A program made the position numbers and the translations under genes. A model generated the notes under the pieces. The model made no database searches, was not told the DNA's origin, and worked only from the letters and a program-made list of their open reading frames with translations. A stretch of DNA of 58,522 bases. Origin: a virus. Each line of letters opens with the position of its first letter. Within the stretch, counting starts at the first letter, position 1. Below are positions 30,942 through 53,761 of this stretch, piece after piece. The stretch is taken from the IMG/VR virus record IMGVR_UViG_3300029448_000026, positions 1 through 58,522 of that record. The stretch is one strand, 5' to 3'.

Positions 30942-31223
30942 CTAACAGTTCCATTTCCGCAAAGACTTATTTATCCTAGAGTTCGGATCTTTAGCGGTCT
31001 TTGCACTCGTTCTCCTTTTCTTCATTCCTTCCATTCTAGCGCAGAAAGACTTTCTTCTATTTGCTGCTTTAGAACCTTTCTTTAGCTTTGAAGGTTTAGT
31101 TGTAACCGCTGTCTTTAACTTAGATCCTGGATTAGCTTTTCTATATGAAGCGACTCCTTTTGCATTAAGTCCTCCACTCTTAGATTTACCTTCTTTCCTT
31201 TGCCATGCAGGTGACTTAGCCAT
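30942..31223 (-). CDS. DUF6321-like basic protein (93 aa)
   Basis: The beginning (SPAWQRKEGKSKSGGLNAKG, ASYRKANPG) and the end (KSFCARMEGMKKRRTSAKTA, DPNSRINKSLRKWNC) are strongly conserved in a phage family I recall as DUF6321. Nearly a third of residues are basic. Its start overlaps the portal stop as TAATG. It is perhaps a nucleic-acid-binding or head-assembly protein; not proven. Confidence 0.75.
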   Translation of the reverse strand: MAKSPAWQRKEGKSKSGGLNAKGVASYRKANPGSKLKTAVTTKPSKLKKGSKAANRRKSFCARMEGMKKRRTSAKTAKDPNSRINKSLRKWNC

Positions 31224-33610
31224 TATTGCTTTCCTTTCATGGTTTTTATTATATCTAAGTTAAGTTTGTTATCAGACTCTACCTTCTCTTTAGCTAACTT
31301 AACTCCTTTTTCCTTCGCGTCAATCTCTACTTTAGTTTTTTCTATTTCCACCTTCTCTTTATCAATAGCTGCGTCAGCAGCATCTTTCTGAGCTTTACGT
31401 TGTACTTCAGCTTGTTTAATGCCTAGTTCTTGCTGTTGCATCTGTACAACAGGATCTTGCGCTTTTGCCATGGCTTGCTGTTGGGCAACCATTTTTGCAT
31501 TCTTCTGTTGTAACTGCGCTCCTGCTTTGGCTACTAGCTGTGACAAGCTTACTTCTATGTCTTCTGGTAACTCCTCACCAGGTGCTGGTAGAGGTGCGCC
31601 AAGCTCCATCTCTATCTGTTTACGATACTTAAATCCAAGATGTTCAGCTATATGTGATTGTAAAGCTGCCATGATACGTTTTGCTTGTGGATTCTGTCCT
31701 ATCATTTGAGCCATCGTAGGATCTTGTAAGAATGATACATGAGATGCAATATGTGCATCGTGATCCTGATAAAGAAAAGCTTTCATCGGTTTACCTGTAA
31801 GAGCGTTCATATTCTCACTGACAGGATCTGTTGGTTTTATATCATCTTTTGTTGGAACAAGTTTGTCTGCGTTCTTTACCCCTAACACTTCTATCATCTG
31901 TCTGTGTAGTTGTGGTAAGTCGTATATTTGCGGTGCTTGCTGTGCCATTTGAAGAACTGCCTGATACTGTACCACTCTTTGCGCCATTGTAGAGCTATTT
32001 GGGTCTGACACAGGAATAACATCTGTCATCATGTAGTCAGCTTGCTTCGCGCTTGTTTGTCCTCTGTGTGGTTGGTATGTGTACTCTACAGGGGCGTATT
32101 CAGTCATAATAGCCTTGAGTAACTTAAACTCCTGTTTCATAGCATAGTGTACGCGAGCCTGTACTGCTGCCATGGGTTTAAGTGTTCTCTCTAACAAGGC
32201 AAGAGTTGTACCCACAGGAGCGTTAGCTGACATATCAGATATGTTCATATCGCTGATAGCCCCTAACCTTCTACCTTCAGTCGTAATCTGATTTAGTAAA
32301 GCTAAGAGAGTTTGGCTTGGCTCTTTATATGGTAGAGCCATAATATTATCACGAATACTGCCAGACGGTACATCTACATCTTTCCATTCACCTGGTTCAA
32401 TAGGCGCATCATCTCCTTTAATACGCAATCCACGAGATTTAAGGCCCCCTGGGAGATTAGAGAGAGTACCAGCATCAACAAGTTGACGAATGATTGAAGT
32501 TCCTGCACGAGCATATCCTCCTATAATGTGAATAAGTCCAAGACCGTAAAAACCAAACCCTGGTACATATACATAATGTACGAAATGCTGGCGTTTTAAC
32601 ATCAGCTCATCATCAGGGTTCCAGTTTCTTCTAATAGCCAATATTTCATTAGACCCACGTTCTATGGTGACCACGTAAGGTTTTGCTATCTCGTTATCAG
32701 ACTCATCAATCCCATCAATAACAAGATCTGCGTGAACTTCATACAACGCGTATCTATCATCATCTGTAAGGGAGTAACCCCCTTCTTCTGCTTTTCTTTC
32801 TTCTATATCAGTATGAAAAGATTGTGGGTCTCCTAAGTCTATATCACGGTAAAACCCATTAGCTTGCAGTTTCTTTAACTCATTCTTTGTTTTTCGCATG
32901 ATGTGCGTTACACGCTCTGCTGCCTCTATGTTAGAAGCTCCATAAGGCACGATTACGTCTTCAGCGGGTATATACATAGCGCACTGTCTGCCTATGTTAG
33001 GGTCATAGTATACCTTTTTGAAAGCTGAACCAGCTAGACCTAAACTGTACAATAATCTTTCATGCTCTGGCCTGTACTCCACCATATTCTCTGTCAACTG
33101 ATAGTTCATATCAGCTTTTACACGAGCAGCAGCTTCTTCCTTCTCTTTTGTTTCTTCACCAAGTATTTTTGTCTTAACAGGTCCAGCTGCAGGAAAAGTT
33201 TCACTCATTGTTTCCGCTTGGAACCGTATAGCAGCCTCCGCAAGCACTGTAGAGTAAACTCCACACGCACCCTCCCAAGGTTCGGTACGTTCTTCATATT
33301 TAAACCCCAGAACGTCCAGCCCCTTTACAAACGTGTCTGCCCAGTCTTTTCGACTATCCACGTCAGAATCTACCATCTCAACAATATCTGAAGCCAGAAT
33401 TTTGAGATCGTTCTCCTCCATTACATCGGCTAAGTTTTCATCAAACTCACCTGTACCTGACACATCTGCTTCAGGTATAATCGTAACCTCTACACTTCCA
33501 TCATTCAAAGTGACCATTTCTGGATCTACGATATCTATTTCTAGACCTTCACCTTCTGGCATTGGTGGGACACCCTCTGGTGCTTGGTATAAGCTCTTCT
33601 CAATAGCCAT
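31223..33610 (-). CDS. Portal protein, P22-like (795 aa)
   Basis: The protein has the sequence character of P22-type portals: an N-terminal acidic lead of about 65 residues, ILASDIVEMVDSDVDSRKDW, WEGACGVYSTVLAEAAIRFQ, ERLLYSLGLAGSAFKKVYYD, a long helical stem region (about residues 370-480, RAGTSIIRQLVDAG, PVGTTLALLERTLKPM) and a Gln/Lys-rich C-terminal coiled coil (about residues 660-780) like the P22 barrel. The dodecameric portal forms the DNA channel and binds the terminase. Length is similar to P22 (725). Upstream genes are the packaging genes. Confidence 0.85.
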   Translation of the reverse strand: MAIEKSLYQAPEGVPPMPEGEGLEIDIVDPEMVTLNDGSVEVTIIPEADVSGTGEFDENLADVMEENDLKILASDIVEMVDSDVDSRKDWADTFVKGLDVLGFKYEERTEPWEGACGVYSTVLAEAAIRFQAETMSETFPAAGPVKTKILGEETKEKEEAAARVKADMNYQLTENMVEYRPEHERLLYSLGLAGSAFKKVYYDPNIGRQCAMYIPAEDVIVPYGASNIEAAERVTHIMRKTKNELKKLQANGFYRDIDLGDPQSFHTDIEERKAEEGGYSLTDDDRYALYEVHADLVIDGIDESDNEIAKPYVVTIERGSNEILAIRRNWNPDDELMLKRQHFVHYVYVPGFGFYGLGLIHIIGGYARAGTSIIRQLVDAGTLSNLPGGLKSRGLRIKGDDAPIEPGEWKDVDVPSGSIRDNIMALPYKEPSQTLLALLNQITTEGRRLGAISDMNISDMSANAPVGTTLALLERTLKPMAAVQARVHYAMKQEFKLLKAIMTEYAPVEYTYQPHRGQTSAKQADYMMTDVIPVSDPNSSTMAQRVVQYQAVLQMAQQAPQIYDLPQLHRQMIEVLGVKNADKLVPTKDDIKPTDPVSENMNALTGKPMKAFLYQDHDAHIASHVSFLQDPTMAQMIGQNPQAKRIMAALQSHIAEHLGFKYRKQIEMELGAPLPAPGEELPEDIEVSLSQLVAKAGAQLQQKNAKMVAQQQAMAKAQDPVVQMQQQELGIKQAEVQRKAQKDAADAAIDKEKVEIEKTKVEIDAKEKGVKLAKEKVESDNKLNLDIIKTMKGKQ

Positions 33611-34754: not shown

Positions 34755-36223
34755 CAATCTTCCTCAAAATCAAGTTCTAGTTGTTTGTACGAGTCATCTG
34801 GGTTGACAAGCATCTCGTCATAGATAACATAATTTAATTTATCTTTGTCTGCCTCTGAAATACCCCCAAAATTTTGGCCAGGTCTAAGCTTTATACCGTG
34901 CAAACCATTTTTTGCCAACATATCTTCTATAAAAGAGGGTGCAAATATTTTATTTTTAAGTGCGTCTACCTTAGCATTCTTCGGGGGTACACGCCCCGTA
35001 ACGCTATAACCAATACCACCAGTTCGCATAGCATCAAGTGCTAATTCTTTAGCGAGGTCTTTCCAGTTGTTAATTATCTGCCCTACATCGCGACTAAAAA
35101 ACCCAGGCATCCCTACCTTAAATATTTTTCCTTCTTTTCTAGAAGGGGGAAACAATTTCTTTTGTATTTCATTTATCTTTGCAACTTGGTTAGGTAAGAG
35201 TACTTTTATTTCTTCAAATACTTTATTAAGATCCTCACCAGTTTTTCTGAAAGCACTTTGAATTTCTTTACTCTGTATTGTAATAGGACTATTCCAATGG
35301 GCCATTCTTTCTTTTAATGCTTTTGAAGTTACTTCTTTAACCGCCCCAAAACCGTCTCTAAGCTTATCTCCATGCATACTTAAAAACTCAGCTACTTTTC
35401 GCCTTCGTATTTTTTTATTAGGGTGAGATGCAAACCTTTTTGCTGCCTCTATAAAATCTACCCCATCAACTTTTTCAAAAGCTTCGTTTGCAAATTTAGG
35501 ATCATTATAAGCTTTTTTGAAAACCCCATGAATCCTATAAAAATCTGTAACATCATCTAAAGTACCAAAATAATGTCCATCGCTAAAAGCCTGACTTCCC
35601 TGCCCACTACTCATATATGATTTGTCAAAATAATCAAAAGTAGGTTCTTCAGGTGTCCCAAACCCAGTTCCGTGTTTTAAGTCCCCAATTTCCCCTTTTT
35701 CCCTTAGAAACCCAGGCCCTATAGTTCTTTCCGTAATTTCATCTTTAAAATCTGTATATAACTTCTTTTTAAAATAGGGAAAAAAATTAATCCCCTCTAT
35801 TATCTCATCAAGGTTATCTTTAACATTCGCTCCTGTAACCCCCAATTTATCTATCGCTGCCTGAGCTATAGGTGTTCCCGCCTCCTCTACTACTTTGGAG
35901 CTTAGACCAGGTACTAGAGAATATAACGCAGCTGTAGTAAGATCCATACCTCTGCCTGCGGTTCCCATGTCTATATTCCCAGATAATATGTCATCTGTTA
36001 CATCCTTACCAGCATCTAATACCTCTTGCTTATCTGCAGCAGATACTATTTCAGGTAAAAGGTTTCCTAACTTACCATAAAATTCACCAAACCCTGGTAC
36101 TCTAGCAATAGCTTCGTCAATTTTACCAAACTGTTTTCTTATGGGCTTTGTAAGCTCAAACCTTTCTTCGGGAGTATCAATCTTACCGATTGTACTTTTA
36201 TAAAGTTCGTCTAACCCAGCCAT
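34754..36223 (-). CDS. ADP-ribosyltransferase-like protein after terminase (489 aa)
   Basis: Residues 183-222 read KHGTGFG, then FDYFDKSYMSSGQGSQAFSD and GHYFGT. This follows the layout of PARP/polyvalent-protein ADP-ribosyltransferase-like domains: first-strand His (H184) with G-T, then G-x-Y-F (Y218). A final strand YVIYDEM (residues 465-471) could give the third motif with E470. The N-terminal 170 residues and the middle are helical. Such domains in large phage proteins are thought to modify host targets on entry. Catalysis is not shown. It is coupled to terminase by a TGATG overlap. Confidence 0.65.
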   Translation of the reverse strand: MAGLDELYKSTIGKIDTPEERFELTKPIRKQFGKIDEAIARVPGFGEFYGKLGNLLPEIVSAADKQEVLDAGKDVTDDILSGNIDMGTAGRGMDLTTAALYSLVPGLSSKVVEEAGTPIAQAAIDKLGVTGANVKDNLDEIIEGINFFPYFKKKLYTDFKDEITERTIGPGFLREKGEIGDLKHGTGFGTPEEPTFDYFDKSYMSSGQGSQAFSDGHYFGTLDDVTDFYRIHGVFKKAYNDPKFANEAFEKVDGVDFIEAAKRFASHPNKKIRRRKVAEFLSMHGDKLRDGFGAVKEVTSKALKERMAHWNSPITIQSKEIQSAFRKTGEDLNKVFEEIKVLLPNQVAKINEIQKKLFPPSRKEGKIFKVGMPGFFSRDVGQIINNWKDLAKELALDAMRTGGIGYSVTGRVPPKNAKVDALKNKIFAPSFIEDMLAKNGLHGIKLRPGQNFGGISEADKDKLNYVIYDEMLVNPDDSYKQLELDFEED

Positions 36224-37782
36224 CAGTAATAACCACTTCCTCTACGTTTAAAATACCTTATCTCATCTGGTTCGTCATTTGGCAATCTAATAAACCCTCC
36301 TTGCCTAAACCGCATAAGAGCCATCACCATAGAATCCACAAGGTCATCATGACTCATAAATGGAAATCCTGCAACTTCTTCTACCAATTCTTCCGCCCAT
36401 CTTGTTTCTGGAACCCATACCATTCCAGATGATACCATATCCGTTACAGAATTTAAACGGGCTAATTTATCTCCCGACCCTCTATGAGGAGTATATTCCT
36501 GTACAGGAATACCCATCCTGCGCATTTCTTGGTAAACTGCTGTACCTGCGCTCTTTTTCTCCACAATAAACGAATCAGGTTCCCACTCATCATGCTCTTC
36601 TAAAGCCAAGGCTTTTAGTTCAGGAAACTCCAAACGCTTTTTTATACTGTTAAGAAGTATGATATGATGCTCTCCTGCATCTTCATTCAAGAACACACCC
36701 CATGTTGTCAAGGCTGTAAAGTCTGCTCTGTTGTGTGTTTCAGCAGCTGCGTCCAATGACATGATAATATATTCACAGGGCGGTGGCCGTTCTACTTTCC
36801 ATTTCTGCCACCACTCCCGTTTGATGATCGAGGCTTCTTCAGCAGTGGGTTGCTGTTGGTACTGTGCGTTCCATTGAAACACAGGCATGGAAGCTTTTGT
36901 ACGATAGAGAGCTTCTAAATCAAAAAAAGCAGGCCAAAGTGGTTTTTCTACTTCTTTCTTAGTCTCTGTACCCTCTATCTTTAGTATCGCGGGGAACTCT
37001 ACGATCTCATACTGATCCGACTGTTTGTTGTTTGACATATCCTTAGTAACACGTCCTGTCAGGTCATCCATGTGCCAACGTGTTTGTATGATAGCTACAC
37101 GCCCACCAGGCATAAGGCGTGTTCTAGCACCGAAAGTGAACCAGTCGTATGCCTTTTCAAAAACTTCAAAGTTACCGTTTATAACATCCTGTTCAGAATG
37201 AGGATCGTCAACAAGCAACAGATCAGCGCCACGACCAGCGATAGAGGAACCGATTCCACAAGCATAATATTCTCCTCCCATGTTTGTATTCCATCTTCCT
37301 GCTGATTTAGAGTCAACAGCTAACTCAACAGTAGGAAATATTTGTTTATATTCTTCAGTAGCGATCAAGTTACGTACTTTTCTACCGAAATCGACAGCCA
37401 AATCAGTCGTATGAGAGACCATCATGACTTTTTTATTCGGGTTACGCCCCAAAAACCACGCGGGAAACATAATAGACACTAACTGAGATTTTCCATGTCT
37501 AGGGGGTATATTAACACAGATACGGTCTTTTTTACCCTGTTCTATGTCCATTAACATACCTGCAAGGAGCCTATGATGCCGTCCTGCTATGTAATCTTTT
37601 TGCATATGTTGACAAAAAGCGATCAAATCACTGTAAGCCTGCTCATTTTTCTTACGAGTATTGAGTTCATTGACCAATTTATCAATCTCTTGCACCTCAT
37701 CAGCGTCAAAAGTGTCTAAATTAGCCAACATTTGCTGTATTTCTGACTCAGAAAAGTCAAAAGACTGTTCAGTTGTCGTCAT
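36223..37782 (-). CDS. terL: Terminase large subunit (519 aa)
   Basis: ATPase motifs are clear: a phage-type Walker A PPRHGKSQ at residues 93-100, Walker B DLLLVDDPHSEQD at about 187-199, and motif III-like IIQTRWHMDDL. The C-terminal nuclease has IIMSLDAA (about residue 340) as first acidic strand and a final HDDLVDS, which fits the RNase H-like site. It packages DNA into the prohead through the portal. The preceding gene overlaps by 14 bases and is the presumed small subunit. Confidence 0.93.
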   Translation of the reverse strand: MTTTEQSFDFSESEIQQMLANLDTFDADEVQEIDKLVNELNTRKKNEQAYSDLIAFCQHMQKDYIAGRHHRLLAGMLMDIEQGKKDRICVNIPPRHGKSQLVSIMFPAWFLGRNPNKKVMMVSHTTDLAVDFGRKVRNLIATEEYKQIFPTVELAVDSKSAGRWNTNMGGEYYACGIGSSIAGRGADLLLVDDPHSEQDVINGNFEVFEKAYDWFTFGARTRLMPGGRVAIIQTRWHMDDLTGRVTKDMSNNKQSDQYEIVEFPAILKIEGTETKKEVEKPLWPAFFDLEALYRTKASMPVFQWNAQYQQQPTAEEASIIKREWWQKWKVERPPPCEYIIMSLDAAAETHNRADFTALTTWGVFLNEDAGEHHIILLNSIKKRLEFPELKALALEEHDEWEPDSFIVEKKSAGTAVYQEMRRMGIPVQEYTPHRGSGDKLARLNSVTDMVSSGMVWVPETRWAEELVEEVAGFPFMSHDDLVDSMVMALMRFRQGGFIRLPNDEPDEIRYFKRRGSGYY

Positions 37783-38650: not shown

Positions 38651-38667
38651 GTTAGTGATTAACTAAC
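38651..38667. promoter_or_regulatory. Palindrome copy 1, GTTAGT-N5-ACTAAC
   Basis: Spacer GATTA; arms extend to seven bases (A/T outside). It lies in the divergent control region, upstream of the gene at 38772, with a further half-site ACTAAC at 38679-38684. Confidence 0.8.
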
Positions 38668-38771
38668 TAAAACGCTTTACTAACTATATCTATACTTGTT
38701 TATATATGCTTATATTAACTTATCAAGACGCAATCATGCTCTTGTTAAATCAACTAAATGGAGGTGTCACC

Positions 38772-39470
38772 ATGACACAACAAGTAAATACGACTACACC
38801 AACCGAGCATCAACTTCCTAACGGAGCATTGGCAGATCAAAAGGTCAATGCCGTAGATGATAACGTAGGTATAGTTAAAGAAGCTATTGGCTACGCTATC
38901 AAGATAGATGAAACTAAGGAAGAGGGTAAGCAAGCAAGAGGTATGCTTGAGGATATGTCGAACGTGTTTAAGGATGTTGGGATATCCGCCTTTCACTTCT
39001 GCACTCCTAAACTTGCCCATGTGGTCAAGCTGGAAGATGGTACATTCAAGATTACCGAGAATGTAAAGAACCCCCAGCATTTACCTGTGGAGGAGTTAGA
39101 GGTCAGAGGTGAGGGATGTACGGCATCACCTGCTGAGGCTATTGCTATCAGGCAAGCTTACTTTGATAGTTGTGATCCATCTGGGCTTATGACTGAGATA
39201 TTCAATACCCCACAGGATCAACGGAAGAATAAGCATAAGCTTCATGACCGACATATCTTTGATAGCTATAACAAGCAAAGAGATAAGAAGCTTGCCACAG
39301 TATTCAATGCTTTGAAGCCTAAGCAACCCCCAGAGAAAAAGACACCAAAGCAGAAAGTAATCATACATCTGGATAATGTTGCTAAAGCTTTGGAAAAATT
39401 GGATGCTGATACCATGGATATTGATAAGCAAATCCTAGCTTTAAAAGCACGGGTAATCAAACTAAAATAA
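38772..39470 (+). CDS. First early gene, function unknown (232 aa)
   Basis: The start at 38772 is chosen because GGAGGTG lies at 38760-38766; the longer reading would begin in an unsupported hydrophobic lead. The protein is hydrophilic with an N-terminal polar part, a middle with PVEELEVRGEGCTASPAEA and a basic C-terminal coiled coil (about residues 180-232, ending in ALKARVIKLK). No motif is recognised. It is followed by a strong terminator and so is a single-gene unit next to the divergent control region, a place where phages often keep a first-acting host-takeover or regulatory protein. Confidence 0.75.
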   Translation: MTQQVNTTTPTEHQLPNGALADQKVNAVDDNVGIVKEAIGYAIKIDETKEEGKQARGMLEDMSNVFKDVGISAFHFCTPKLAHVVKLEDGTFKITENVKNPQHLPVEELEVRGEGCTASPAEAIAIRQAYFDSCDPSGLMTEIFNTPQDQRKNKHKLHDRHIFDSYNKQRDKKLATVFNALKPKQPPEKKTPKQKVIIHLDNVAKALEKLDADTMDIDKQILALKARVIKLK

Positions 39471-39476
39471 TATATG

Positions 39477-39503
39477 GGGCGACCTTCGGGTCGCCCTTTT
39501 TTT
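39477..39503 (+). terminator. Rho-independent terminator with TTCG loop
   Basis: GGGCGACC at 39477-39484, loop TTCG, then GGTCGCCC at 39489-39496 and seven T. A perfect eight-pair GC-rich stem with an extra-stable tetraloop; it isolates the 38772 gene from the downstream early operon. Confidence 0.95.
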
Positions 39504-39658
39504 GTGCCTAAAGATACCAGTTCTCTCAGTAGCAGTGTGGCGTTTCGACTTAACACGTCTGGGTAGTAGACGTACCATGGCTGCCCGTCTATTAACACGT
39601 CACCACGTACATACCTTTGCCACCCTTGCCACCCAAATGGTAAAAGTTTTGAAAAACA

Positions 39659-39675
39659 GTTAGTCACACACTAAC
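39659..39675. promoter_or_regulatory. Palindrome copy 2, GTTAGT-N5-ACTAAC
   Basis: Spacer CACAC. It lies in the non-coding control region about 150 bases past the terminator. Confidence 0.8.
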
Positions 39676-39717
39676 AAGTTTGAAGCCAGTTCTCATTGTA
39701 GCAGACCGTCTCAGTGT

Positions 39718-40051
39718 AATGTTCCATAATGTTACCATAATGTTCCATAATGTTCCCTTTTTTTTGGGCAAAAAGTAACATTTGATTTTAATTGCAAAAG
39801 GTATCACAAGGTGTCACACGATTGTATCTACTGCATAGAATTTATACTGTATATATATATATATATATAATGTTCCTTTTTTTAAAAAGTATTTAACAAC
39901 TATTCGACCCCCATCTCTTGCTATTCCATTTCAGTTAGTCATTCACTAACCGACCTTTAATTCCTTTCCGTTTGGAACATTGGAACATTCCTTTATTATC
40001 AATAACTTATTTGGAACATTATCAGGACACTATAAGACAATAGGGAACATT
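39718..40051. repeat. AATGTTCC box array around a TA tract
   Basis: Forward boxes AATGTTCC at 39718, 39739, 39749 and 39869, with one variant (AATGTTACC) at 39728; the first four are spaced about ten bases, one helical turn. Inverted boxes GGAACATT start at 39974, 39982, 40013 and 40044. The TA repeat lies between the two groups. This fits iterons plus an unwinding element of an origin; a repressor-binding array is the alternative. Confidence 0.6.
39934..39950. promoter_or_regulatory. Palindrome copy 3, GTTAGT-N5-ACTAAC
   Basis: Spacer CATTC. It lies between the TA tract and the inverted AATGTTCC boxes of the control region. Confidence 0.8.
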
Positions 40052-40118
40052 ACACTGTATGACGTCTTATGATATACTATGACACCAACAAGCCGCTTCT
40101 GTAGTTCGTTGACGTTGG

Positions 40119-40147
40119 TTGACACAGCAGTACACCTATGCTATACT
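40119..40147 (+). promoter_or_regulatory. Strong sigma70-type early promoter
   Basis: TTGACA at 40119-40124, a 17-base spacer, and TATACT at 40142-40147: a perfect -35, optimal spacing and five of six in the -10. Start is expected near 40154, about 40 bases before the gene at 40195. This is the best promoter in the window and presumably drives the early operon with host RNA polymerase. Confidence 0.85.
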
Positions 40148-40194
40148 GTAAGGACAATCTAAAAGTATGTCTAGCAAACAAAGGAGAACACGTT

Positions 40195-41118
40195 ATGACA
40201 GAAGAAACAAACACAGAGAAAGACAAAACAGTTAGTGACATACTAACTGACGAGAATGATATATCTATCTCCACTAGTGCAATGTTGGTAGAGGTCAATA
40301 TATCTAAGTGGACTGGTCGCAAGTTTGATAAGTCAGCAAGCGAGTACGTAGAGACCGCAAACAAAGCACACGTTGGTATGGCTAACGTACATAAGAAGTT
40401 ACTTGGTGACTGTCCTCAACTCAGTGCCATACATAAACACGTTGGTAACAGTTACAACATACATCGCAGTAGTACATTGCCATGGTCTGACAGTGGACTA
40501 CGTCTTGTGCCAACTGTTCACTATTTTAAATACAATCAGCAAATGACAGAACTCAGAAATCACTTCTTTCAACTGTGTGACGATTTCTATGGTGTCTATG
40601 ACTTTGCAATCCAAGAAGCCAAGGTCACACTTGGCGATCTGTTTCAAGCAGACAACTACCCCTCCATTGACACAATCAAATCTAAATTTGCGTGGCGAAT
40701 GAGTTACACCGAAGTACCTCAAGGTGACTTTCGTGTAGACATTGGCAACGAGGGTTTGCGTCAAGTCAAAGAACAGTTCAAGCGGTTCTCAGATACCCAA
40801 CTCAAACGAGCGATGGGTGACGCATGGCAAAGAACGCATGACGTGTTATCACGTATGTCTGACCGCCTAGATTATTCAGGGAGCGAAGACAAGAAAGTAT
40901 TTCGTGATACGATAGTCACTAACGTCACTGACCTTGTCGATCTACTTGATGGGTTCAACCTCACCAACGATCCTGCAATGAAGACAATGCAGAAGAAACT
41001 AGAAAAGACTTTCCGTGGCATCACACCAGATGCACTACGTGAAGACGATATCTTACGGCTCGACACTAAGAAGGCCGTAGATGAAGCCATCAAGGCATTA
41101 CCTAGTCTTGATATATAG
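40195..41118 (+). CDS. MoxR/VWA-associated protein, DUF3150-like (307 aa)
   Basis: The start at 40195 follows AAAGGAGAACACGTT; the longer reading lacks a site. After a polar 35-residue N-terminus come VEVNISKWTGRKFDKSASEY, HRSSTLPWSDSG, NYPSIDTIKSKF and VPQGDFRV, then a helical C-terminal half. This layout is that of a phage protein repeatedly found beside MoxR ATPase and VWA genes and sometimes classed as DUF3150; the class name is from memory. It is the first gene after the early promoter. A palindrome copy lies inside it (codons 13-18). A shared complex with the AAA+ and VWA proteins is inferred. Confidence 0.7.
   Translation: MTEETNTEKDKTVSDILTDENDISISTSAMLVEVNISKWTGRKFDKSASEYVETANKAHVGMANVHKKLLGDCPQLSAIHKHVGNSYNIHRSSTLPWSDSGLRLVPTVHYFKYNQQMTELRNHFFQLCDDFYGVYDFAIQEAKVTLGDLFQADNYPSIDTIKSKFAWRMSYTEVPQGDFRVDIGNEGLRQVKEQFKRFSDTQLKRAMGDAWQRTHDVLSRMSDRLDYSGSEDKKVFRDTIVTNVTDLVDLLDGFNLTNDPAMKTMQKKLEKTFRGITPDALREDDILRLDTKKAVDEAIKALPSLDI
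40231..40247. promoter_or_regulatory. Palindrome copy 4, inside the DUF3150-like gene
   Basis: Spacer GACAT; symmetry extends to eight-base arms (CAGTTAGT / ACTAACTG). It is within the coding sequence, 36 bases after the start codon, where it is read as VSDILT, and about 75 bases downstream of the expected transcription start. Confidence 0.8.
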
Positions 41119-41123
41119 AAACT

Positions 41124-41140
41124 GTTAGTCACACACTAAC
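41124..41140. promoter_or_regulatory. Palindrome copy 5, directly before a ribosome binding site
   Basis: Spacer CACAC. It fills the gap between the stop at 41118 and the GGAGA (41146-41150) of the next gene, six bases from it. Confidence 0.8.
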
Positions 41141-41157
41141 TAAAAGGAGAACATATT

Positions 41158-41472
41158 ATGGTACAGAAAAGAAAAAGCAGATTGATGGGCTTTGAAGAGT
41201 TCATGCAACTTTCAGAAAAAACAGAAAAGGAGAACGCGGAGAAGGCAGAGTTAGGGAAATTCCTAGAAGAGCATAACAGATTACACGCACTTCATACAGA
41301 TAAGGAGAAGGATTTTCTTATTAATGAGCAACTATTAAAAACAGAAAAGGAGAACGCGGAGAAGGCAGAGTTCTTTCAACATCTAAACAATGTGATGGCT
41401 AACAAGTTACTCAAGCCAAGTATTATAATGGAATATGTCAATCAATATAACATCAGTATGGGAGAAGAATAA
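41158..41472 (+). CDS. Charged coiled-coil protein with internal duplication (104 aa)
   Basis: AAAAGGAGAACATATT precedes the ATG. The protein is almost fully helical and very charged. The peptide KTEKENAEKAE occurs twice, 40 residues apart, encoded by an exact 36-base repeat. It ends one base inside the start of the MoxR gene, so the two are coupled. Probably an accessory subunit of the MoxR/VWA module; no named family. Confidence 0.7.
   Translation: MVQKRKSRLMGFEEFMQLSEKTEKENAEKAELGKFLEEHNRLHALHTDKEKDFLINEQLLKTEKENAEKAEFFQHLNNVMANKLLKPSIIMEYVNQYNISMGEE
41217..41372 (+). repeat. Exact 36-base in-frame direct repeat
   Basis: Copies at 41217-41252 and 41337-41372 are identical, with a period of 120 bases, so the reading frame is kept. 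The repeat contains AAAAGGAGAACG, which resembles the ribosome binding sites used in this arm. Recent duplication or recombination is implied by perfect identity. Confidence 0.9.
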
Positions 41473-42569
41473 TGGCAAACTCAGCTATAAATATGTACGA
41501 ACTATCACTCGACCAATGTGTATCAGCTATCATTGCAGGTGGTAATAAAAGAACTGTACTTATGCAAGGTCACATGGGTACAGGTAAATCAGCAACACTT
41601 ACAATGCTTGATAACAAGTTACCAGAACACAAGGCTTGTTACTTTGATTGTACCACCAAAGACTTGGGTGACTTGTTGATACCTAAACTCAAAGACGTAG
41701 ACGGTAACGACTATGTTACATTTGCAACCAACGAAGAACTTGGGTTACATCTTGCAAACACTCCGATCATACTAATGGTTGATGAGATTGGTAAGGCAAA
41801 CCCTTCCGTATTCAATGGTATGCTACGATTGATATATGAAAGAAAGATTGGTTCTTATACTATGCATCCAGAAAGTATATTGTTTGCAACTACTAATCTT
41901 GGGGCAGAGGGTGTTGGTGATATCATACCCCCACATGGGCTCAATCGTATTACTGTGGTCAAGGTACGCAAACCAGAACACATGGAGCTTATCGAATATG
42001 GTATTAACAACAACTGGGATAGTAGTGTACTTGGTTGGATCAAGGACAATCCATCTTTGTTGCAGACCTTTGAAGATGTAAAGAACCCAGACGACAACCC
42101 ACACATATACCACCCACAATCTAACCAAACATCTTTTGTTACACCTAGATCATTAGAGTGTGCAAGCGACTGGTTGCAGGTACGGGATCAGTTTGATGAC
42201 CACACGTTAACAGGTTTACTCATGGGTACGATAGGTGAACGCGGGGCAATGGACTTGATGGCCTTTGTCAAACTTGCAGATGATCTACCTAAACTTGAAG
42301 AGGTCAAGAACGATCCTAAGAATGCCAAAGTACCTACGAGTGCTAGTGCAGTATGCATGGTGGTCTATCGTACTCTTGCCAACTTGGAAAGGGATTGGAT
42401 CAATGCATGGATGGATTACATGGTGCGTCTTGACAAGGAAGCACAAGGTCTATTCGCCAATGGTGTTCGGTCAGAGAAGTATGCCAAGCGATCTATGGTT
42501 ATGACGAATAAGAAGTTCACCGATTGGGCTATGGAAAACAACTACATGTTCGTAGCAGATAAGAAGTAG
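41472..42569 (+). CDS. MoxR-type AAA+ ATPase (365 aa)
   Basis: Walker A is GHMGTGKS at residues 33-40, Walker B is ILMVDEIGKANP at about 100-111 (D104, E105), sensor 1 is FATTN at 138-142, and the finger region is GLNRITVV (R159). The segment NGMLRLIYERKIG is typical of MoxR ATPases. MoxR proteins act as chaperone-like ATPases that work with VWA-domain partners to remodel target proteins. A VWA partner lies two genes downstream. Phage copies are sometimes called CobS, but there is no cobalamin pathway here. Start ATG overlaps the preceding stop. Confidence 0.85.
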   Translation: MANSAINMYELSLDQCVSAIIAGGNKRTVLMQGHMGTGKSATLTMLDNKLPEHKACYFDCTTKDLGDLLIPKLKDVDGNDYVTFATNEELGLHLANTPIILMVDEIGKANPSVFNGMLRLIYERKIGSYTMHPESILFATTNLGAEGVGDIIPPHGLNRITVVKVRKPEHMELIEYGINNNWDSSVLGWIKDNPSLLQTFEDVKNPDDNPHIYHPQSNQTSFVTPRSLECASDWLQVRDQFDDHTLTGLLMGTIGERGAMDLMAFVKLADDLPKLEEVKNDPKNAKVPTSASAVCMVVYRTLANLERDWINAWMDYMVRLDKEAQGLFANGVRSEKYAKRSMVMTNKKFTDWAMENNYMFVADKK

Positions 42570-42577
42570 GAGATAAC

Positions 42578-42865
42578 ATGTTACACAAAGACACTAAGAA
42601 AAGACAGACCCAACGAGAAAGGCTCTATGCTATTCGTAGGAAGAAACAAGTTATGATGGATAAAGGATCAACGTTTGCTATCTGTGAGATCCTTGAAGCA
42701 CTAGAGAAACATCTTGACGCAAATGGTTTCAAGTCAGAATGGCGATCTGTTCTCGGTCAAGATACTAACCATAATCCTATTTGGAATTTGAACATCTATG
42801 TAGAGGTGGACAAGAAACAATGGGGCAAAGCAGTTAGTAATACACTAACCAAAAATAGGAGATAA
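42578..42865 (+). CDS. Small basic protein between MoxR and VWA genes (95 aa)
   Basis: TAGGAGATAAC precedes the ATG. The N-terminal 30 residues are strongly basic (KKRQTQRERLYAIRRKKQ), followed by an alpha/beta part (FAICEILEALEKHLDANGF, PIWNLNIYVEVDKKQWGKAV). The 3' end contains a palindrome copy, read as VSNTLT. No family is recognised; position implies a role in the MoxR/VWA module. Confidence 0.65.
   Translation: MLHKDTKKRQTQRERLYAIRRKKQVMMDKGSTFAICEILEALEKHLDANGFKSEWRSVLGQDTNHNPIWNLNIYVEVDKKQWGKAVSNTLTKNRR
42833..42849. promoter_or_regulatory. Palindrome copy 6, before the VWA gene
   Basis: Spacer AATAC. It lies in the last codons of the 95-residue gene and ends eight bases before the AGGAGA of the VWA gene. 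Confidence 0.8.
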
Positions 42866-42866
42866 C

Positions 42867-44126
42867 ATGTTACAGATAGGAAAACAACTCACACCTGAGC
42901 AACGATTGTCTAAAGCAGTTGTCGATGCTATGGGTCACAGTAGGTACATGCGATTGGCGAGTGTACTTATGATTGGTAATAGATCAATCGAAGATGGTAT
43001 ACCAACGGCTTGCACTGATGGTAGGAACGAGTGGTATGGCAGAGAGTTTATTACCAAACTCAATGACGCAGAACTACGGTTCCTCGTATTGCATGAGTGC
43101 TACCACAAGTTATACAGACACTTATTTGTTTGGGAACACTTGGTCAAAGACGATCCACACCTTGCCAACGTAGCTATGGATATGGTTATCAATACTAAAC
43201 TTGTCACTGAGAATGAGAAAGACTTGTTTGCTACAATGACAGGTGAACTATCAATCGGTTGCTATGACAAAAAGTATGAGGGTTGGGATACTGCAATGGT
43301 GTATCACGACCTCAAGAAGAATGGTCTACCCAAGCAAAAGGGCCTACCAGGCAATGGAGATGGTACACCTACAAACACGTCATCAGGTGATGGTACTACT
43401 ACCACCGTACAGGGGCATGGTGGGTTCGATACACACGACCATGAGAATGCCAAGGTTATGAGTGAGAAAGAAAAGAAAGACCTTGCCAAAGATATTGATG
43501 AAGCGATACGTCAGGGTGCTATGATTGCAGGTAAGATGGGCAGTGGTGGTGACCGAGACTTTGACGAACTACTCAAAGCAAAGATAGATTGGAAACAAGT
43601 ACTACGTGATTTCATTACCACTACTTGTAAGGGTAAGGACTTCTCGACTTGGAACAGACCCAATCGTAGGTTCATTGGTCAGGGTATATACATGCCTAGT
43701 GGTATATCTGAGAAGGTCGGTGAACTTGTCATTGCCATTGACACGTCAGGTAGTATCGGTGACCACGAACTACAAGCATTTCTTTCAGAGGTCAAAGGTA
43801 TCGTTGACAACGTACACCCAGACAAAGTGCGTATGTTGTATTGGGATACCAAGGTATGCAAAGAAGAAATTTATGAGACGCAGGAAGTTGACAAACTCAT
43901 TCAATCCACAAAGCCAGAAGGTGGTGGTGGTACTACGATCGAGTGTGTCCCAGAACATCTTGCGGAGCATAACGTGTCACCACAAGCGACTATCATTCTT
44001 ACTGATGGTTACCTTGGTGGCTCTTGGGGTCAATGGACTTGCCCCACCCTGTGGTGCATTATCGACAATGCATCTGCACAACCAGATGTGGGCAAGTGTG
44101 TTCACATCAATTCACATGAACTGTAA
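42867..44126 (+). CDS. VWA protein with HExxH N-terminal domain (419 aa)
   Basis: The N-terminal domain has LHECYHKLYRH, an HExxH motif with H76, E77 and H80, the mark of the putative metallopeptidase domain found with VWA-like domains (DUF2201 type). A Gly/Thr-rich linker runs from about 155 to 190. The C-terminal VWA domain starts at LVIAIDTSGSIGDHE, with MIDAS residues D292, S294 and S296, and continues with a TDGYLGG acidic loop near residue 388. With the MoxR ATPase it forms the classic ATPase plus VWA adaptor pair. AATAGGAGATAAC gives its ribosome binding site. Whether the HExxH site is active is unknown. Confidence 0.82.
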   Translation: MLQIGKQLTPEQRLSKAVVDAMGHSRYMRLASVLMIGNRSIEDGIPTACTDGRNEWYGREFITKLNDAELRFLVLHECYHKLYRHLFVWEHLVKDDPHLANVAMDMVINTKLVTENEKDLFATMTGELSIGCYDKKYEGWDTAMVYHDLKKNGLPKQKGLPGNGDGTPTNTSSGDGTTTTVQGHGGFDTHDHENAKVMSEKEKKDLAKDIDEAIRQGAMIAGKMGSGGDRDFDELLKAKIDWKQVLRDFITTTCKGKDFSTWNRPNRRFIGQGIYMPSGISEKVGELVIAIDTSGSIGDHELQAFLSEVKGIVDNVHPDKVRMLYWDTKVCKEEIYETQEVDKLIQSTKPEGGGGTTIECVPEHLAEHNVSPQATIILTDGYLGGSWGQWTCPTLWCIIDNASAQPDVGKCVHINSHEL

Positions 44127-44128
44127 TT

Positions 44129-44145
44129 GTTAGTCACGCACTAAC
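44129..44145. promoter_or_regulatory. Palindrome copy 7, directly before a ribosome binding site
   Basis: Spacer CACGC. It fills the gap after the VWA stop and ends seven bases before the AAGGAGA region of the next gene. Confidence 0.8.
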
Positions 44146-44163
44146 TAAACAAGGAGAAACTAA

Positions 44164-45240
44164 ATGTCATATAGATATCATTCAACAAACCTTAATACCT
44201 TTGCTGAAGTTGCTGAGTTATACAACACAGTAAAACCTGTGGTCAGTAAGAACCACCGTAGAGAAGATGACCTTAGACCGATAGGTGTTCGCACTAGAAA
44301 GAATGAACGCATCATCAAAGTAAGTGATAACAAGTATATACTTAATGATGGGGAGTGCGATCCAATACCATTCTGGCATGGTTACAACCACAACAATGCT
44401 ACTAGATTACCAACCATGAAAGAGGTCGAGGCACTCGCACCGATAGTGTGGTCTATTGATCGTAAGGGTAACGAGGTTATCAAGATACGTAATGGGTCTG
44501 GTAAAGGGTCACACCAAACACGATACGCATTCCTTCAACATACCCTACCAGAGAATATGGGGCTTCTTATTGATAGTGGTAAGCAGTACATTCAACTTAT
44601 ACGACACTACAATCATGAGGCTGAACATAAAAACTTCTTCCTACCAAAGAGTGAATATAATTGGAAAGATGGAGATTCAAAAGATGATGGTAGGCAGTTG
44701 TACTTTACCAGACCCATAAATCATAAGAACCCCCATACCCCTTGGAGTATCAAGGGTAACACGTTTACATTTAGCCCACCAAGGAAGAGGATAGATCTAG
44801 AACGTAAGGCTAGGGTCAAACCTCTGTGCGATAAGTTCTATGAGTACATACTAGCCATGTATCCATTGGTCGAGTTAAAAGATAGTGGTTGGCATTGGTC
44901 TGTATACCAAGACAAGCTGTCTTCTTTGCAAGAACACTTTGAGATCTTCTCAGGTACACTTGTGAAGGAAGGAAACCAACACCCTTACACACATTGGGAC
45001 TGGGATAATAAGCACGACTTCGTTGAACATGTACTAAAGAAAGAGGATCACCCATGTAGGGTCGTACTTCTAGAGTTGTTTATCATTGACAGTGAGTTGC
45101 ACCAGATCAAGGTAGGGAACTCTCATGTACCTGATGACAAGTTATCAAGTGTCATACGCAACCAATGGAACAGATGGGTCAACAAAATATTTGATCTTGA
45201 GTATGTACATACTAAGGCAACCATAGCGAGGGTGAAGTAA
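44164..45240 (+). CDS. Uncharacterised early protein (358 aa)
   Basis: AAGGAGAAACTAA precedes the ATG. The protein is soluble, rich in His, Asn, Lys and Trp (FWHGYNHNNATRLPT, SGWHWSVYQDKL, HTHWDWDNKHD-like), with a helical C-terminal third. I recognise no domain. Its stop overlaps the next start by one base. Membership in the palindrome-marked cassette suggests expression with the MoxR/VWA genes. Confidence 0.7.
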   Translation: MSYRYHSTNLNTFAEVAELYNTVKPVVSKNHRREDDLRPIGVRTRKNERIIKVSDNKYILNDGECDPIPFWHGYNHNNATRLPTMKEVEALAPIVWSIDRKGNEVIKIRNGSGKGSHQTRYAFLQHTLPENMGLLIDSGKQYIQLIRHYNHEAEHKNFFLPKSEYNWKDGDSKDDGRQLYFTRPINHKNPHTPWSIKGNTFTFSPPRKRIDLERKARVKPLCDKFYEYILAMYPLVELKDSGWHWSVYQDKLSSLQEHFEIFSGTLVKEGNQHPYTHWDWDNKHDFVEHVLKKEDHPCRVVLLELFIIDSELHQIKVGNSHVPDDKLSSVIRNQWNRWVNKIFDLEYVHTKATIARVK

Positions 45241-45737
45241 TGGGTTACCGTAGCGATGTAGTCATTGCACACTCTTTCATTTCTAAGAGCCACATGGAAG
45301 AGGTGCTTACCGTACTGACATTGGATAAGAGGTTTGCTGAGTACAAATTGGCAGACCACGTCTACACCAGCGAGGAGTACATACCACATGAAGACAAGTA
45401 TATGTTTAACCTTGTGGTGGTTGGCGAACAATGGAAGTGGTATGAGGAAAGCCAATTTGGTGGGTATGAGGATGTAGCTTGCATTAATTCCTTACTTACA
45501 ATCTGCCAAGATTTTAACACAGAAAGGGGTGTACCATACGCATACAAGTTTCTACGTATTGGTGAAGACGTGACCGATGAAGAGATGCGTGAGAAGGCAA
45601 GTGATTGTCAACATGGGGAATGGCTTGGAGAGATGCAAGATCGGGTCATGTTTATAAACAGAACAATAGAAAACGACTTCGCTAACTTACAATCAGTTAG
45701 TGGGTCACTAACCGAAAAGGAGAATGACAATGAGTGA
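45240..45737 (+). CDS. MGYRSDV-type small phage protein (165 aa)
   Basis: The N-terminus MGYRSDVVIA is shared by many uncharacterised phage proteins. An alpha/beta body follows (MFNLVVVGEQWKWYEES, YAYKFLRIGED). The acidic C-terminus contains a palindrome copy, read as VSGSLT. Its ATG overlaps the previous stop (TAATG) and its end overlaps the next gene by eight bases. Function unknown. Confidence 0.7.
   Translation: MGYRSDVVIAHSFISKSHMEEVLTVLTLDKRFAEYKLADHVYTSEEYIPHEDKYMFNLVVVGEQWKWYEESQFGGYEDVACINSLLTICQDFNTERGVPYAYKFLRIGEDVTDEEMREKASDCQHGEWLGEMQDRVMFINRTIENDFANLQSVSGSLTEKENDNE
45696..45712. promoter_or_regulatory. Palindrome copy 8, before the 341-aa gene
   Basis: Spacer GGGTC. It lies in the last codons of the 165-residue gene and ends seven bases before GGAGA at 45719-45723. 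Confidence 0.8.
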
Positions 45738-46755
45738 TAGTAGATTTTTAGATAGCAACTATAAGAAGGAAAGCCTAGAGAAGTTACACTCAGTGACTAG
45801 GAGTAAGAAATGTATTGTCAAAGGTGAGACCTTGAGAAACCTTCCTGTCATTAATGATGAGACAGAGATTAGTGAGGTGTTTGTTGATGTGTCAGGGGAG
45901 GCTCTATTTGGTGACAAATACAATGTAAACTTCCCACAATTATTACACCACAGTACGACATATAAAGCTATTGTATTCGCCAAGGAGTTAGCACACAAGA
46001 TCAGAGGTGTTGACTTTGCAGTGTGTTCGATAAAAAGGACTAAGAGTGTATTTTGGGTATTCATGGAGGAACAAGTTTATACGATGGGTCAGATTGGCTA
46101 TGGGGATTTCTATACAACAACTACCCCTGCCCAGTACGAGTACATGGTTAGTTCCTACCCTATACAAAACTACAAGTATGATTCGTATTCTGAGCAACAC
46201 TACATGGCTAGGTCTATGCATATAGACAAGGCTATAAAGAATGCGAGTTCTTATTTGCGTAACCCTGCACCGAAAGACGTAGCGATATTAAATGCATTCA
46301 AGGCTAAACGAGAGTTCACTGATATTGGTGATAATATAGAATACAAGGTAAGGAGTAGTGCCAAAGAGGTTTTGAACGATGAAGTTATGTTGATAAGAGA
46401 GTTGAGAAATCTTTTGGACACAGATCATAAGTTCATACATGATGTTTTCCGTAGTAATGTTGAAAGATGGATACATGATACAGACGAGCTGGCCGATAGG
46501 AAACGTAAGGCACTCAACCTATATCACGTTAGGGTGTACATGGAAGAGGATGTACAGACCTTCGATGTCATACCTATGGACAACGTACAAGGAGATGTAC
46601 ACAAATCTGTCGGAGACCTTGTAACATATACTGTAGACAATGTACCAGAATATATAGTTGGTAAGGTGTCCGTATTATCCATGGTCAATGCTGAAACTTT
46701 TGTTGATGATGTGGGGTACAGAGATGAAGCAGGTTGTTTCTACATTACACGATGA
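45730..46755 (+). CDS. Uncharacterised early protein (341 aa)
   Basis: The ATG at 45730 has AAAAGGAGA at ideal distance; the ATG six bases upstream is too close. The protein is alpha/beta with FAVCSIKRTKSVFWVFMEEQ, a tyrosine-rich middle (YPIQNYKYDSYSEQHYM) and a helical part before a beta-rich C-terminus. I know similar proteins from phages only as hypothetical. It lies in the palindrome-marked cassette. Confidence 0.7.
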   Translation: MSDSRFLDSNYKKESLEKLHSVTRSKKCIVKGETLRNLPVINDETEISEVFVDVSGEALFGDKYNVNFPQLLHHSTTYKAIVFAKELAHKIRGVDFAVCSIKRTKSVFWVFMEEQVYTMGQIGYGDFYTTTTPAQYEYMVSSYPIQNYKYDSYSEQHYMARSMHIDKAIKNASSYLRNPAPKDVAILNAFKAKREFTDIGDNIEYKVRSSAKEVLNDEVMLIRELRNLLDTDHKFIHDVFRSNVERWIHDTDELADRKRKALNLYHVRVYMEEDVQTFDVIPMDNVQGDVHKSVGDLVTYTVDNVPEYIVGKVSVLSMVNAETFVDDVGYRDEAGCFYITR

Positions 46756-46996
46756 CTTGTTATCTAGTGACAGGGTATACCGTGTACAGATACCGATAGA
46801 TAGGAAATACATAACTGTGATATGTATTGGCATAGAATGTATTGACAAGGAATTAAAGAATTGCTACCATTCGATTAATGACTTACCAAATTGGTTGCAG
46901 GGCAAGATAGCGGTGCTTATGCTCTGTGACTTTAACGAGGAGATAAGGGGAGTTGGTCGGAGAGTGCGAGAGGATTTATTCTACATATTTGGTTAG
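46724..46996 (+). CDS. Small uncharacterised early protein (90 aa)
   Basis: The frame overlaps the end of the previous gene by 32 bases. The start is uncertain: ATG at 46724 or 46709, neither with a strong ribosome binding site. The core is YITVICIGIECIDKELKNCY followed by DLPNWLQGKIAVLMLCDFNE, a mixed alpha/beta fold with four cysteines. Function unknown. Confidence 0.6.
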   Translation: MKQVVSTLHDDLLSSDRVYRVQIPIDRKYITVICIGIECIDKELKNCYHSINDLPNWLQGKIAVLMLCDFNEEIRGVGRRVREDLFYIFG

Positions 46997-47008
46997 TGCG
47001 TTACTAAC
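46992..47008. promoter_or_regulatory. Palindrome copy 9, after the 90-aa gene
   Basis: Spacer GCGTT. It begins in the last codons of the 90-residue gene and is followed at once by a hairpin at 47015-47040. Confidence 0.8.
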
Positions 47009-47014
47009 TGATTG

Positions 47015-47040
47015 ACCCACTTGGCTACGGCTGAGTGGGT
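47015..47040 (+). terminator. Weak terminator-like hairpin
   Basis: ACCCACT at 47015-47021 pairs with AGTGGGT at 47034-47040, loop 12 bases, followed only by TT. The short T run makes it a weak terminator or an RNA processing site. Confidence 0.4.
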
Positions 47041-47074
47041 TTGATGCCAGTTCCACCACTATTAGGGAGAAACG

Positions 47075-47227
47075 ATGAAGACAGAAGATTTACCAACTGA
47101 TTTAACTTTGTTCCTGAGAGAGATGGGATTAATTGAGGACATGGCTTTACCAAATAAAACGGTTAGTGCTACACTAACTTACAAGGTGTGGTTACCAACA
47201 AATAAAGAAGAGGAGATACCGTTTTGA
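47075..47227 (+). CDS. 50-aa protein coupled to the VRR-NUC gene
   Basis: AGGGAGAAACG precedes the ATG. The protein is acidic at the front (MKTEDLPTDLTLFLREMG) and ends in PTNKEEEIPF. Its stop TGA overlaps the TTG start of the nuclease gene (TTGA), which explains that unusual start. A palindrome copy lies within it, read as VSATLT. Function unknown. Confidence 0.6.
   Translation: MKTEDLPTDLTLFLREMGLIEDMALPNKTVSATLTYKVWLPTNKEEEIPF
47162..47178. promoter_or_regulatory. Palindrome copy 10, inside the 50-aa gene
   Basis: Spacer GCTAC. It is 46 bases before the nuclease start and is the last copy found; none was seen from here to the right end. Confidence 0.8.
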
Positions 47228-53133: not shown

Positions 53134-53529
53134 ATGGATATAAGTAAACTAATAAAAACCTATATAAAAATACGAGACCAACGTTCCGTATTGAAATCAG
53201 ACTATGCCGACAAAGACTCCACTTTACTGAAACAACAAGACACTATTAAAGAAGCTATCAATGAGTATGCTGACATGAATAAGGTCGATAGAGCAGGAAC
53301 AAGTGAGGGTATGTTTTATAGGACTACAAAAACCAGATACTGGACAAGTGATTGGGAGTCTATGTACAAGTTTGTTGTAGAAAATAAAACACCAGAGTTC
53401 TTTGACAAACGTCTAAATCAAAAAAATGTAAGGGAGTATTTAGACGAGAACCCAGACAAACTTCCAGAAGGATTAAACGTAGATACGGAGTATGTCATAT
53501 CTGTTAGGAAAAATAAAAATGATAAGTGA
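53134..53529 (+). CDS. Conserved phage replication-region protein (131 aa)
   Basis: A helical N-terminal part (LIKTYIKIRDQRSVLKSDYA) is followed by GTSEGMFYRTTKTRYWTSDW and NPDKLPEGLNVDTEYVISVR. I know the pattern from small proteins in marine phage replication operons; no function is assigned. GTGAGG upstream is a weak ribosome binding site. It overlaps the HTH gene by 11 bases. Confidence 0.65.
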   Translation: MDISKLIKTYIKIRDQRSVLKSDYADKDSTLLKQQDTIKEAINEYADMNKVDRAGTSEGMFYRTTKTRYWTSDWESMYKFVVENKTPEFFDKRLNQKNVREYLDENPDKLPEGLNVDTEYVISVRKNKNDK

Positions 53530-53761
53530 AGAACCTTTTGTTACAATAGATAATGTTGCAAAACATTTTTCTGTTTCAAAATCTACGGTACGTGGTTGGG
53601 TAAGAGAGAACCGTATACCGAAAGATACCTATATACGTATAGGTAATACACTACGATTTAAGATTAGTGGTGTAAGCGAAGCCCTAATTCAGTTTTCAAA
53701 AGATACTTTGAGTACAGTTGATATGGATGACGAATTAGATTTACTTGATGAAGATAATTAA
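53519..53761 (+). CDS. Excisionase-type helix-turn-helix protein (80 aa)
   Basis: The start at 53519 is preferred over a longer reading inside the previous gene. FVTIDNVAKHFSVSKSTVRG followed by WVRENRIP and YIRIGNTLRFKIS is the winged HTH_17/MerR-Xis pattern. An acidic tail follows. With no integrase in the window, it is more likely a regulator or origin-binding protein than a true excisionase. It is the only clear HTH protein seen, so it is a candidate to bind one of the repeated sites; that is speculation. Confidence 0.75.
   Translation: MISEEPFVTIDNVAKHFSVSKSTVRGWVRENRIPKDTYIRIGNTLRFKISGVSEALIQFSKDTLSTVDMDDELDLLDEDN

Follow-up and report, generated by a model that had tools for sequence, protein, structure and literature searches.

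The Streptomyces phage phiC31 is temperate, carries a serine integrase, and encodes a repressor that binds inverted repeats of about 17 bp at many early loci. The mycobacteriophages L5 and Bxb1 (Cluster A) are also temperate, and in them asymmetric, direction-dependent 13-mer stoperators are spread genome-wide; the L5 repressor is a monomer with a helix-turn-helix (HTH) and a stoperator domain (PMC9283540, PMC6550527). In the temperate phage SPbeta, the repressor MrpR has a tyrosine-recombinase fold, and its 15-bp element, SPBRE, occurs in many intergenic and promoter regions (PMC10516654). Here we describe ten palindromes with identical arms, GTTAGT-N5-ACTAAC, in the early arm of an uncultivated phage (virus record IMGVR_UViG_3300029448_000026, of which positions 1 to 58,522 were analyzed and are called the window below). 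These palindromes are probably operators of a dimeric protein encoded by the first early gene (38772-39470), which would roadblock host RNA polymerase and shut off the early genes.

As in L5 and Bxb1, many copies of one short site lie in short intergenic spaces or near gene boundaries, the site sequence is specific to the phage type and diverges together with the regulator, and the geometry would suit a block to elongation. Unlike those of L5, the sites described here are symmetric, 15 to 21 bp long, and restricted, in the records checked, to the early arm, and the protein has no HTH or fold match; nor was there any integrase or partition-gene match, since searches for integrases and for a ParA-type ATPase (PF00589, PF00239, and PF13614) gave nothing in 14 records, some of which may be incomplete. 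With SPbeta the locus shares the pairing of one phage repressor with one repeated element, but unlike MrpR the modeled regulator is all-helical without a fold match, and 0 of the 14 records has a Phage_integrase match. The likeness to phiC31 would lie in symmetric inverted repeats in the early region; unlike phiC31, the same records show no Resolvase match. Inverted repeats before early genes also recall phage N4, and the AAA/VWA gene pair resembles N4 gp24/gp25 by annotation, but unlike the N4 hairpin promoters the sites have centers of 0 to 5 nucleotides (nt) and lie downstream of consensus sigma-70-like promoters. A search for a T7-type RNA polymerase gave no PF00940 match, its control being likewise silent. 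Functionally, the closest systems appear to be the Cluster A stoperators and SPBRE/MrpR, which may work similarly; the locus belongs to neither, because its sites are symmetric, none of the tests made related its protein to theirs, and no lysogeny genes were found.

The ten copies lie at 38651-38667 (site 1; spacer gatta), 39659-39675 (site 2; cacac), 39934-39950 (site 3; cattc), 40231-40247 (site 4; gacat), 41124-41140 (site 5; cacac), 42833-42849 (site 6; aatac), 44129-44145 (site 7; cacgc), 45696-45712 (site 8; gggtc), 46992-47008 (site 9; gcgtt), and 47162-47178 (site 10; gctac). Their coordinates, identical six-base arms, and uniform 5-base spacers are all as given in the original prediction, which had been made from the letters of the window alone and had proposed counting the motif against shuffled sequence and comparing the conservation of arms and spacers. 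Chance would give 0.03 copies in the window (maximum of 1 in 100 dinucleotide shuffles) against the 10 observed, no near-miss with 1 or 2 mismatches was found in the window, and the 5.6 kb of the 64,123-base record outside the window hold 0 further sites. Arms are kept and spacers drift: the close relative L014 has orthologues of nine of the sites, with changes at 1 of 108 arm positions and 16 of 45 spacer positions; the tenth window site, 42833, is absent from L014. As also foreseen, 5 of the 10 sites overlap coding sequence wholly or partly (40231, 42833, 45696, 46992, and 47162), 46992 overlapping a stop codon and 47162 lying in a 50-amino-acid (aa) open reading frame (47075-47227). The suggestion that the sites form a multi-site operator or stoperator system marking one regulon is backed by these statistics, by placement, and by comparative genomics. 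Two features had gone unnoticed. Sites 5 to 8 stop exactly 17 to 18 nt short of the next ATG, immediately 5' of the Shine-Dalgarno sequence (17 nt for sites 5, 6, and 8, before the ATGs at 41158, 42867, and 45730, and 18 nt for site 7, before that at 44164), sites 6 and 8 lying within the 3' end of the upstream gene; and the palindrome sequence varies between related phages.

Relatives were gathered by searching with the VWA and DUF3150-like proteins. The phage group is abundant and uncultivated, at least 588 IMG/VR contigs, possibly incomplete, carrying the DUF3150 marker. The palindrome system is group-wide, occurring in hundreds of environmental relatives, with many SPECIFICITIES: relatives carry families in the same region, often of other sequence, and nearly every related contig with enough sequence has a family of its own, giving about 25 types of 15 to 21 bp. 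Among them are GTTAGTG-N3, GTTAGGGA-N1/N2, TTAGGGAA-N0, GTTATAG-N3/5, GTTATACG-N1/3, GTTAGGC-N3, TGTAGTGA-N1, GTAGTCC-N2, TCCCGTC-N3, CCTGAC-N4, CCTTACA-N1, CCTAACA-N1, and others. Palindrome scan scores run from 10 to 71 in 76 relative loci, compared with at most 5.4 in shuffled sequence, and in ten long records the sites are found in the early arm only, plus one before an SNF2 helicase gene in G009, G013, and G018. Scores in structural arms are about 4 to 6 in five of six, the sixth, G005, reaching 16 from a tandem repeat; this repeat, in the structural half of the G005 record (L035), consists of eight TAGTG-N6-CACTA copies at 54-nt multiples at 1048-1700, the copies being positions 48-696 of a stretch that starts at record base 1. 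The exception in the group is G003, which has three remnant sites only and a first gene unlike the others; a search for a replacement motif there, where most sites are lost, found none. Four cultured phages with a related terminase score 5 to 8, and the cultured Pelagibacter phages HTVC023P and HTVC027P share the terminase ancestry and have no palindrome family; nor do the N4-like relatives L025 and L026. A megablast search of the region against phage records gave no match, and a literature search on MinM2-type palindromes, DUF3150 phages, or elements of this kind turned up no relevant paper. Two cultured phages carry repeated palindromes of their own. Synechococcus phage MinM2 (L022; OQ594354) has approximately 33 copies (at most 1 mismatch) of a 15-bp GGTTCAG-N-CTGAACC, many before gene starts, and as a cultured phage it is a possible test system. 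Rhizobium phage RHph_TM27A (L024/L045; MN988461), which has a similar replication arm, carries 26 copies of TTACC-N6-GGTAA, a stoperator-like set that is genome-wide and includes copies inside genes and in the other arm.

On the transcribed strand, the window sites could fold into a stem of 6 bp and a loop of 5 nt immediately 5' of the Shine-Dalgarno sequence, which raises the alternative that they are RNA hairpins in 5' leaders, serving as translational operators or as processing or stability elements. If RNA pairing explained the symmetry, loops of at least 3 nt would be required, but spacers of 0, 1, and 2 nt occur in the relatives with conserved inner pairs (TTAGGGAA-N0, CCTTACAG-N0, CCTAACA-N1, and GTTAGGGA-N2), and inner pairs conserved around such centers cannot form in a hairpin. 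In MinM2, a T and an A three bases outside the arms are each kept in 30 of 33 sites, yet the two positions between the arm and this outer T/A are complementary in only 17 of 33 and 5 of 33, a gap that does not pair; and in the one-mismatch sites of G009 (n = 4) the transcript pair would be A.C in three and G.U in one. In addition, the center bases of L010 and G005 are A or T without exception, as a constraint on DNA shape would give. The sites thus look like protein operators, and a role as RNA hairpins is very unlikely.

Which protein binds them is suggested by the first early gene. In most relatives that contain the divergent region, the first early gene to follow site 1 specifies a product of about 160 to 300 aa, and a profile of four such proteins reached 80 loci. 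In nearly all of 124 contigs a motif in the protein predicts the operator: QQQIGA[RK]x[NGKA]D goes with GTTAGTG in 76 of 77 contigs (the other one, L081, is truncated shortly past the gene), SKxKD with GTTAGGGA in 21 of 22 (the discordant L180 is a pattern match outside the helix and belongs to the GRLSDY class), QQ[KR]IGxRMGDI with GTTATAG in 8 of 8, TGAKLVKV with GTTATAC in 5 of 5, GSRL[NS][RK]V with GTTAGGC in 4 of 6 (the remaining L196 and L198 have the consensus TGTTAGnCG), and GRLSDY with TGTAGTGA in 3 of 3. SKxKD is paired with GGGA even in distant proteins (L010, L183, and L197) whose operators differ in spacer. Among single phages, G001 and L016 have GTTAGTG and L199 has GTTAGGGA; the proteins of L169 (operator GTTATACG) and L172 (GTTAGGC) share 80% identity outside residues 90-103 (G001 numbering). 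The window's own motif, KKLATxxNAL, is paired exclusively with GTTAGT-N5, in 3 of 3 phages, and YNKQRDKKLATVFNALKPK of the window protein aligns, weakly, to the specificity helix of the relatives. Residues 95, 96, 98, 99, 100, and 101 (G001 numbering), all in one helix, are among the columns with the highest mutual information with the operator, and the best 10-column window for tracking the operator is 91-100. AlphaFold2, run with a 42-sequence alignment (predicted local distance difference test score [pLDDT], 85), predicts an all-helical protein in which the motif sits within a long helix formed by residues 80-109; a first run with 4 sequences had been poor (pLDDT, 41). Given the helix, the neighboring proteins hardly follow the operator (partial r of 0.04 for DUF3150 and -0.04 for AAA); a TerS-like protein was considered as the binder and is disfavored, with a partial r of 0.21. 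The palindromes are therefore most likely docking sites for the DNA-binding protein that the first early gene would encode.

The original prediction had offered this product alongside another candidate, the HTH protein at 53492-53761 (HTH_17/CI-like). The former is favored by the covariation of its positional orthologues' helix with the operators. As for the HTH protein, no other protein of the arm gives a clear HTH match in Pfam, and it is found in several relatives, but its recognition-helix region, VSxSTxRxWxR, is nearly invariant in G000, G003, G002, G009, and G012, phages whose operators are completely different. With a recognition helix that fails to follow the operator, it is in our view a most improbable cognate repressor. 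It is a small protein, its recognition helix strongly conserved across the group.

Over 62 nonredundant relatives, operator similarity correlates with helix 86-105 at a partial Mantel r of 0.634 when the remainder of the protein is controlled for (0 of 2,000 permutations), and with that remainder at -0.13 when the helix is controlled for; permutation tests of this kind correct incompletely for relatedness, although the near-identical pairs described below are independent of them. This limit weighs against the proposed regulator and its roadblock, and so do several other observations. L150 combines a GTTAGTG operator with an atypical helix. Neither blastp nor phmmer aligns the window's first-gene protein to the main family, a narrower profile did not match it significantly, and the window family's match to a broad profile of 62 sequences is weak (E value, 3.6e-4; probability, 37%), albeit with the predicted helix aligned and with controls further off (E values of at least 0.3 for eight other window proteins and 0.12 to 0.6 for shuffles). 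G001, whose operator is almost the same as the window's, has a first gene that cannot be aligned to the window's by single-sequence search. Moreover, many sites are distant from any start codon, and site 1 precedes the likely promoter of the first gene, a position at which a rightward roadblock would have no effect. Scanning viral contigs with the window's first-gene protein alone gave no match, and its 3-member alignment retrieved only L013 and the L014 contig. Membership of the window protein in the first-gene regulator family is nevertheless likely, though not proven, because of its position, the exclusive 3/3 pairing with the operator, and the weak profile match.

Operators and regulators have also switched together between phages that are otherwise nearly identical. 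Mapped onto a DUF3150 tree, the operator core shows at least 25 changes, an upper-end count in that some labels differ only at an ambiguous position. In the pairs L209/L210 and L150/L154, DUF3150 is identical and aligned DNA is about 94 to 96% identical, and the first genes and operators differ. Between L209 and L210 the early sites are converted from TGTTAGGCG to the TGTAGTC type with flanks conserved, and a distal L210 site is still of the old type; in L154 some sites are converted, some are intermediate, and at least one is of the old type. This pattern would be the trace expected of replacement of the regulator followed by stepwise updating of its operators, and such phages, caught in mid-switch with new operators beside old ones, make a concerted change of specificity directly testable. 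The same pairs bear on the alternative that the sites bind a recruited host regulator, operator differences then mirroring different hosts. Some phages are known to use host repressors, which lends this idea its general plausibility, but differing operators in phages so nearly identical, and a phage-encoded helix that predicts the operator, are contrary to it, and we consider it extremely unlikely. More tentatively, these phages, seemingly without integrases, may use a re-targeting roadblock repressor for superinfection immunity, with competition driving the concerted switching of helix and operators. This is a possibility that we rate below even odds. If it is true, an infecting phage shuts off the early genes of any competitor of the same specificity, and competition drives repeated switching of the regulator helix and of 5 to 15 dispersed operators in otherwise near-identical genomes.

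The placement of the sites points to how the protein might act. A start codon with a Shine-Dalgarno sequence ahead of it lies 8 to 32 nt downstream of 36% of the 457 sites examined in 74 loci, compared with 4.8% of random positions; in the opposite direction the figure is 0.2%. Near-consensus promoters (at least 11/12 sigma-70-like matches with a 17-nt spacer) number 72 on the arm strand, 0 on the other strand, and 4 in shuffled DNA. Measured from the start of the -35 element, the closest site most often begins 60 to 180 nt on (65 to 100 nt for 32 of the 72 promoters), and no site overlaps a promoter core (0/72). Classical operators over promoter cores were considered and rejected, as no sigma-70 -10 element was found directly upstream of the gene-proximal sites and the promoters are further upstream. 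In that the sites are downstream of promoters and never over the core, their position suggests stopping of an elongating polymerase rather than a block to promoter binding. Slowly dissociating proteins such as LacI can roadblock RNA polymerase, as reviewed work shows, whereas lambda CI is not a strong roadblock (PMC10310618). We therefore envisage that the first early gene, as its own transcription unit, makes a dimeric DNA-binding protein that would bind tens of bases downstream of strong host-type promoters, just before ribosome-binding sites; that the bound protein would stall host RNA polymerase in the early arm, comprising the DUF3150-like, AAA, VWA, later, and VRR nuclease genes; and that these genes would go off once the protein accumulates. 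Concerted change of the specificity helix and the operators across the group would then have given the approximately 25 operator types.

A different function for the same protein must be weighed here, namely, that it binds the sites for partition, replication control, DNA compaction, or activation and not to block transcription. Two sites flank or occupy a conserved origin-like repeat array (39718-40051), and in several relatives site 1 is about 30 to 55 nt upstream of the first gene's likely -35 element, as an activator site might be. Against this, replication or partition does not require clustering on one strand before gene starts and downstream of promoters, no ParA-type ATPase (PF13614) was found in the 14 records, and activation from +40 to +80 is unlikely. 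Such functions are on balance unlikely, if not negligibly so, and we favor a roadblock to transcription. The array itself, noncoding, consists of four AATGTTCC followed by four inverted GGAACATT around an AT-rich run. Most of the relatives checked (L014, G009, L016, L140, L168, and L203) keep the repeat as AATGTTC[CG]; it was not seen in G001. The array is likely to be a replication origin with iterons, adjoining operator sites 2 and 3.

The first-gene proteins look like a new family of early-gene off-switches that would be quickly re-targeted. The G001 protein had no tblastn match in 50,697 phage records, the family profile found no relative in GTDB genomes, prophages included, the family had no match in Pfam, PHROG, NCBIfam, or PDB sequences, and a Foldseek search with a modeled relative gave no PDB or BFVD match at an E value of 0.001 or less. 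The family profile gave no match to the first-gene proteins of MinM2, G005, and L202. These results point to an undescribed family of sequence-specific DNA-binding proteins. With many natural protein-operator pairs, the recognition code of one helix may be readable from sequence alone, and synthetic gene control would benefit from orthogonal regulator-operator pairs.

The window's structural arm, with genes for the terminase (36223-37782) and the portal (31223-33610), points leftward, and its early/replication arm points rightward. In the divergent region, site 1 precedes the first early gene by about 100 nt, and most relatives with this region preserved also have a site at that position. The first gene, on the plus strand and encoding the proposed 232-aa regulator, is directly followed by a strong intrinsic terminator (39476-39503, plus strand; a 9-bp stem at 39476-39497 plus a U tract), and it is for this reason probably a transcription unit of its own. 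A 0.7-kb noncoding region separates it from the DUF3150-like gene, with site 2 at the left edge of the repeats and site 3 inside them. A strong, near-perfect sigma-70-like promoter with an extended -10 element, TTGACA-17-TATACT (40119-40147, plus strand; 11/12 consensus matches), precedes the DUF3150-like gene (40195-41118, plus strand), which is named from its MinM2 homologue and would be the first gene of the regulated operon; site 4 is at approximately +77 from the expected start of this promoter, 36 nt into the gene. The proposed regulated arm continues on the same strand with genes for a MoxR-like AAA ATPase (41472-42569) and a DUF2201/VWA-like protein (42867-44126). Site 9 is downstream of a promoter-like TTGACA-17-TACCAT at 46842-46870, and site 10 is 45 nt before the start of the VRR-NUC gene at 47224. 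The AAA and VWA genes of the 40195-44126 cluster are common to many phages, N4-like phages included. Finally, the MinM2 record OQ594354 and two others, OL906435 and PP438419, are each exactly 65,014 bases long with 69% G+C and gave identical match scores, and three different cyanobacterial hosts are assigned to them; these host assignments appear to deserve checking.

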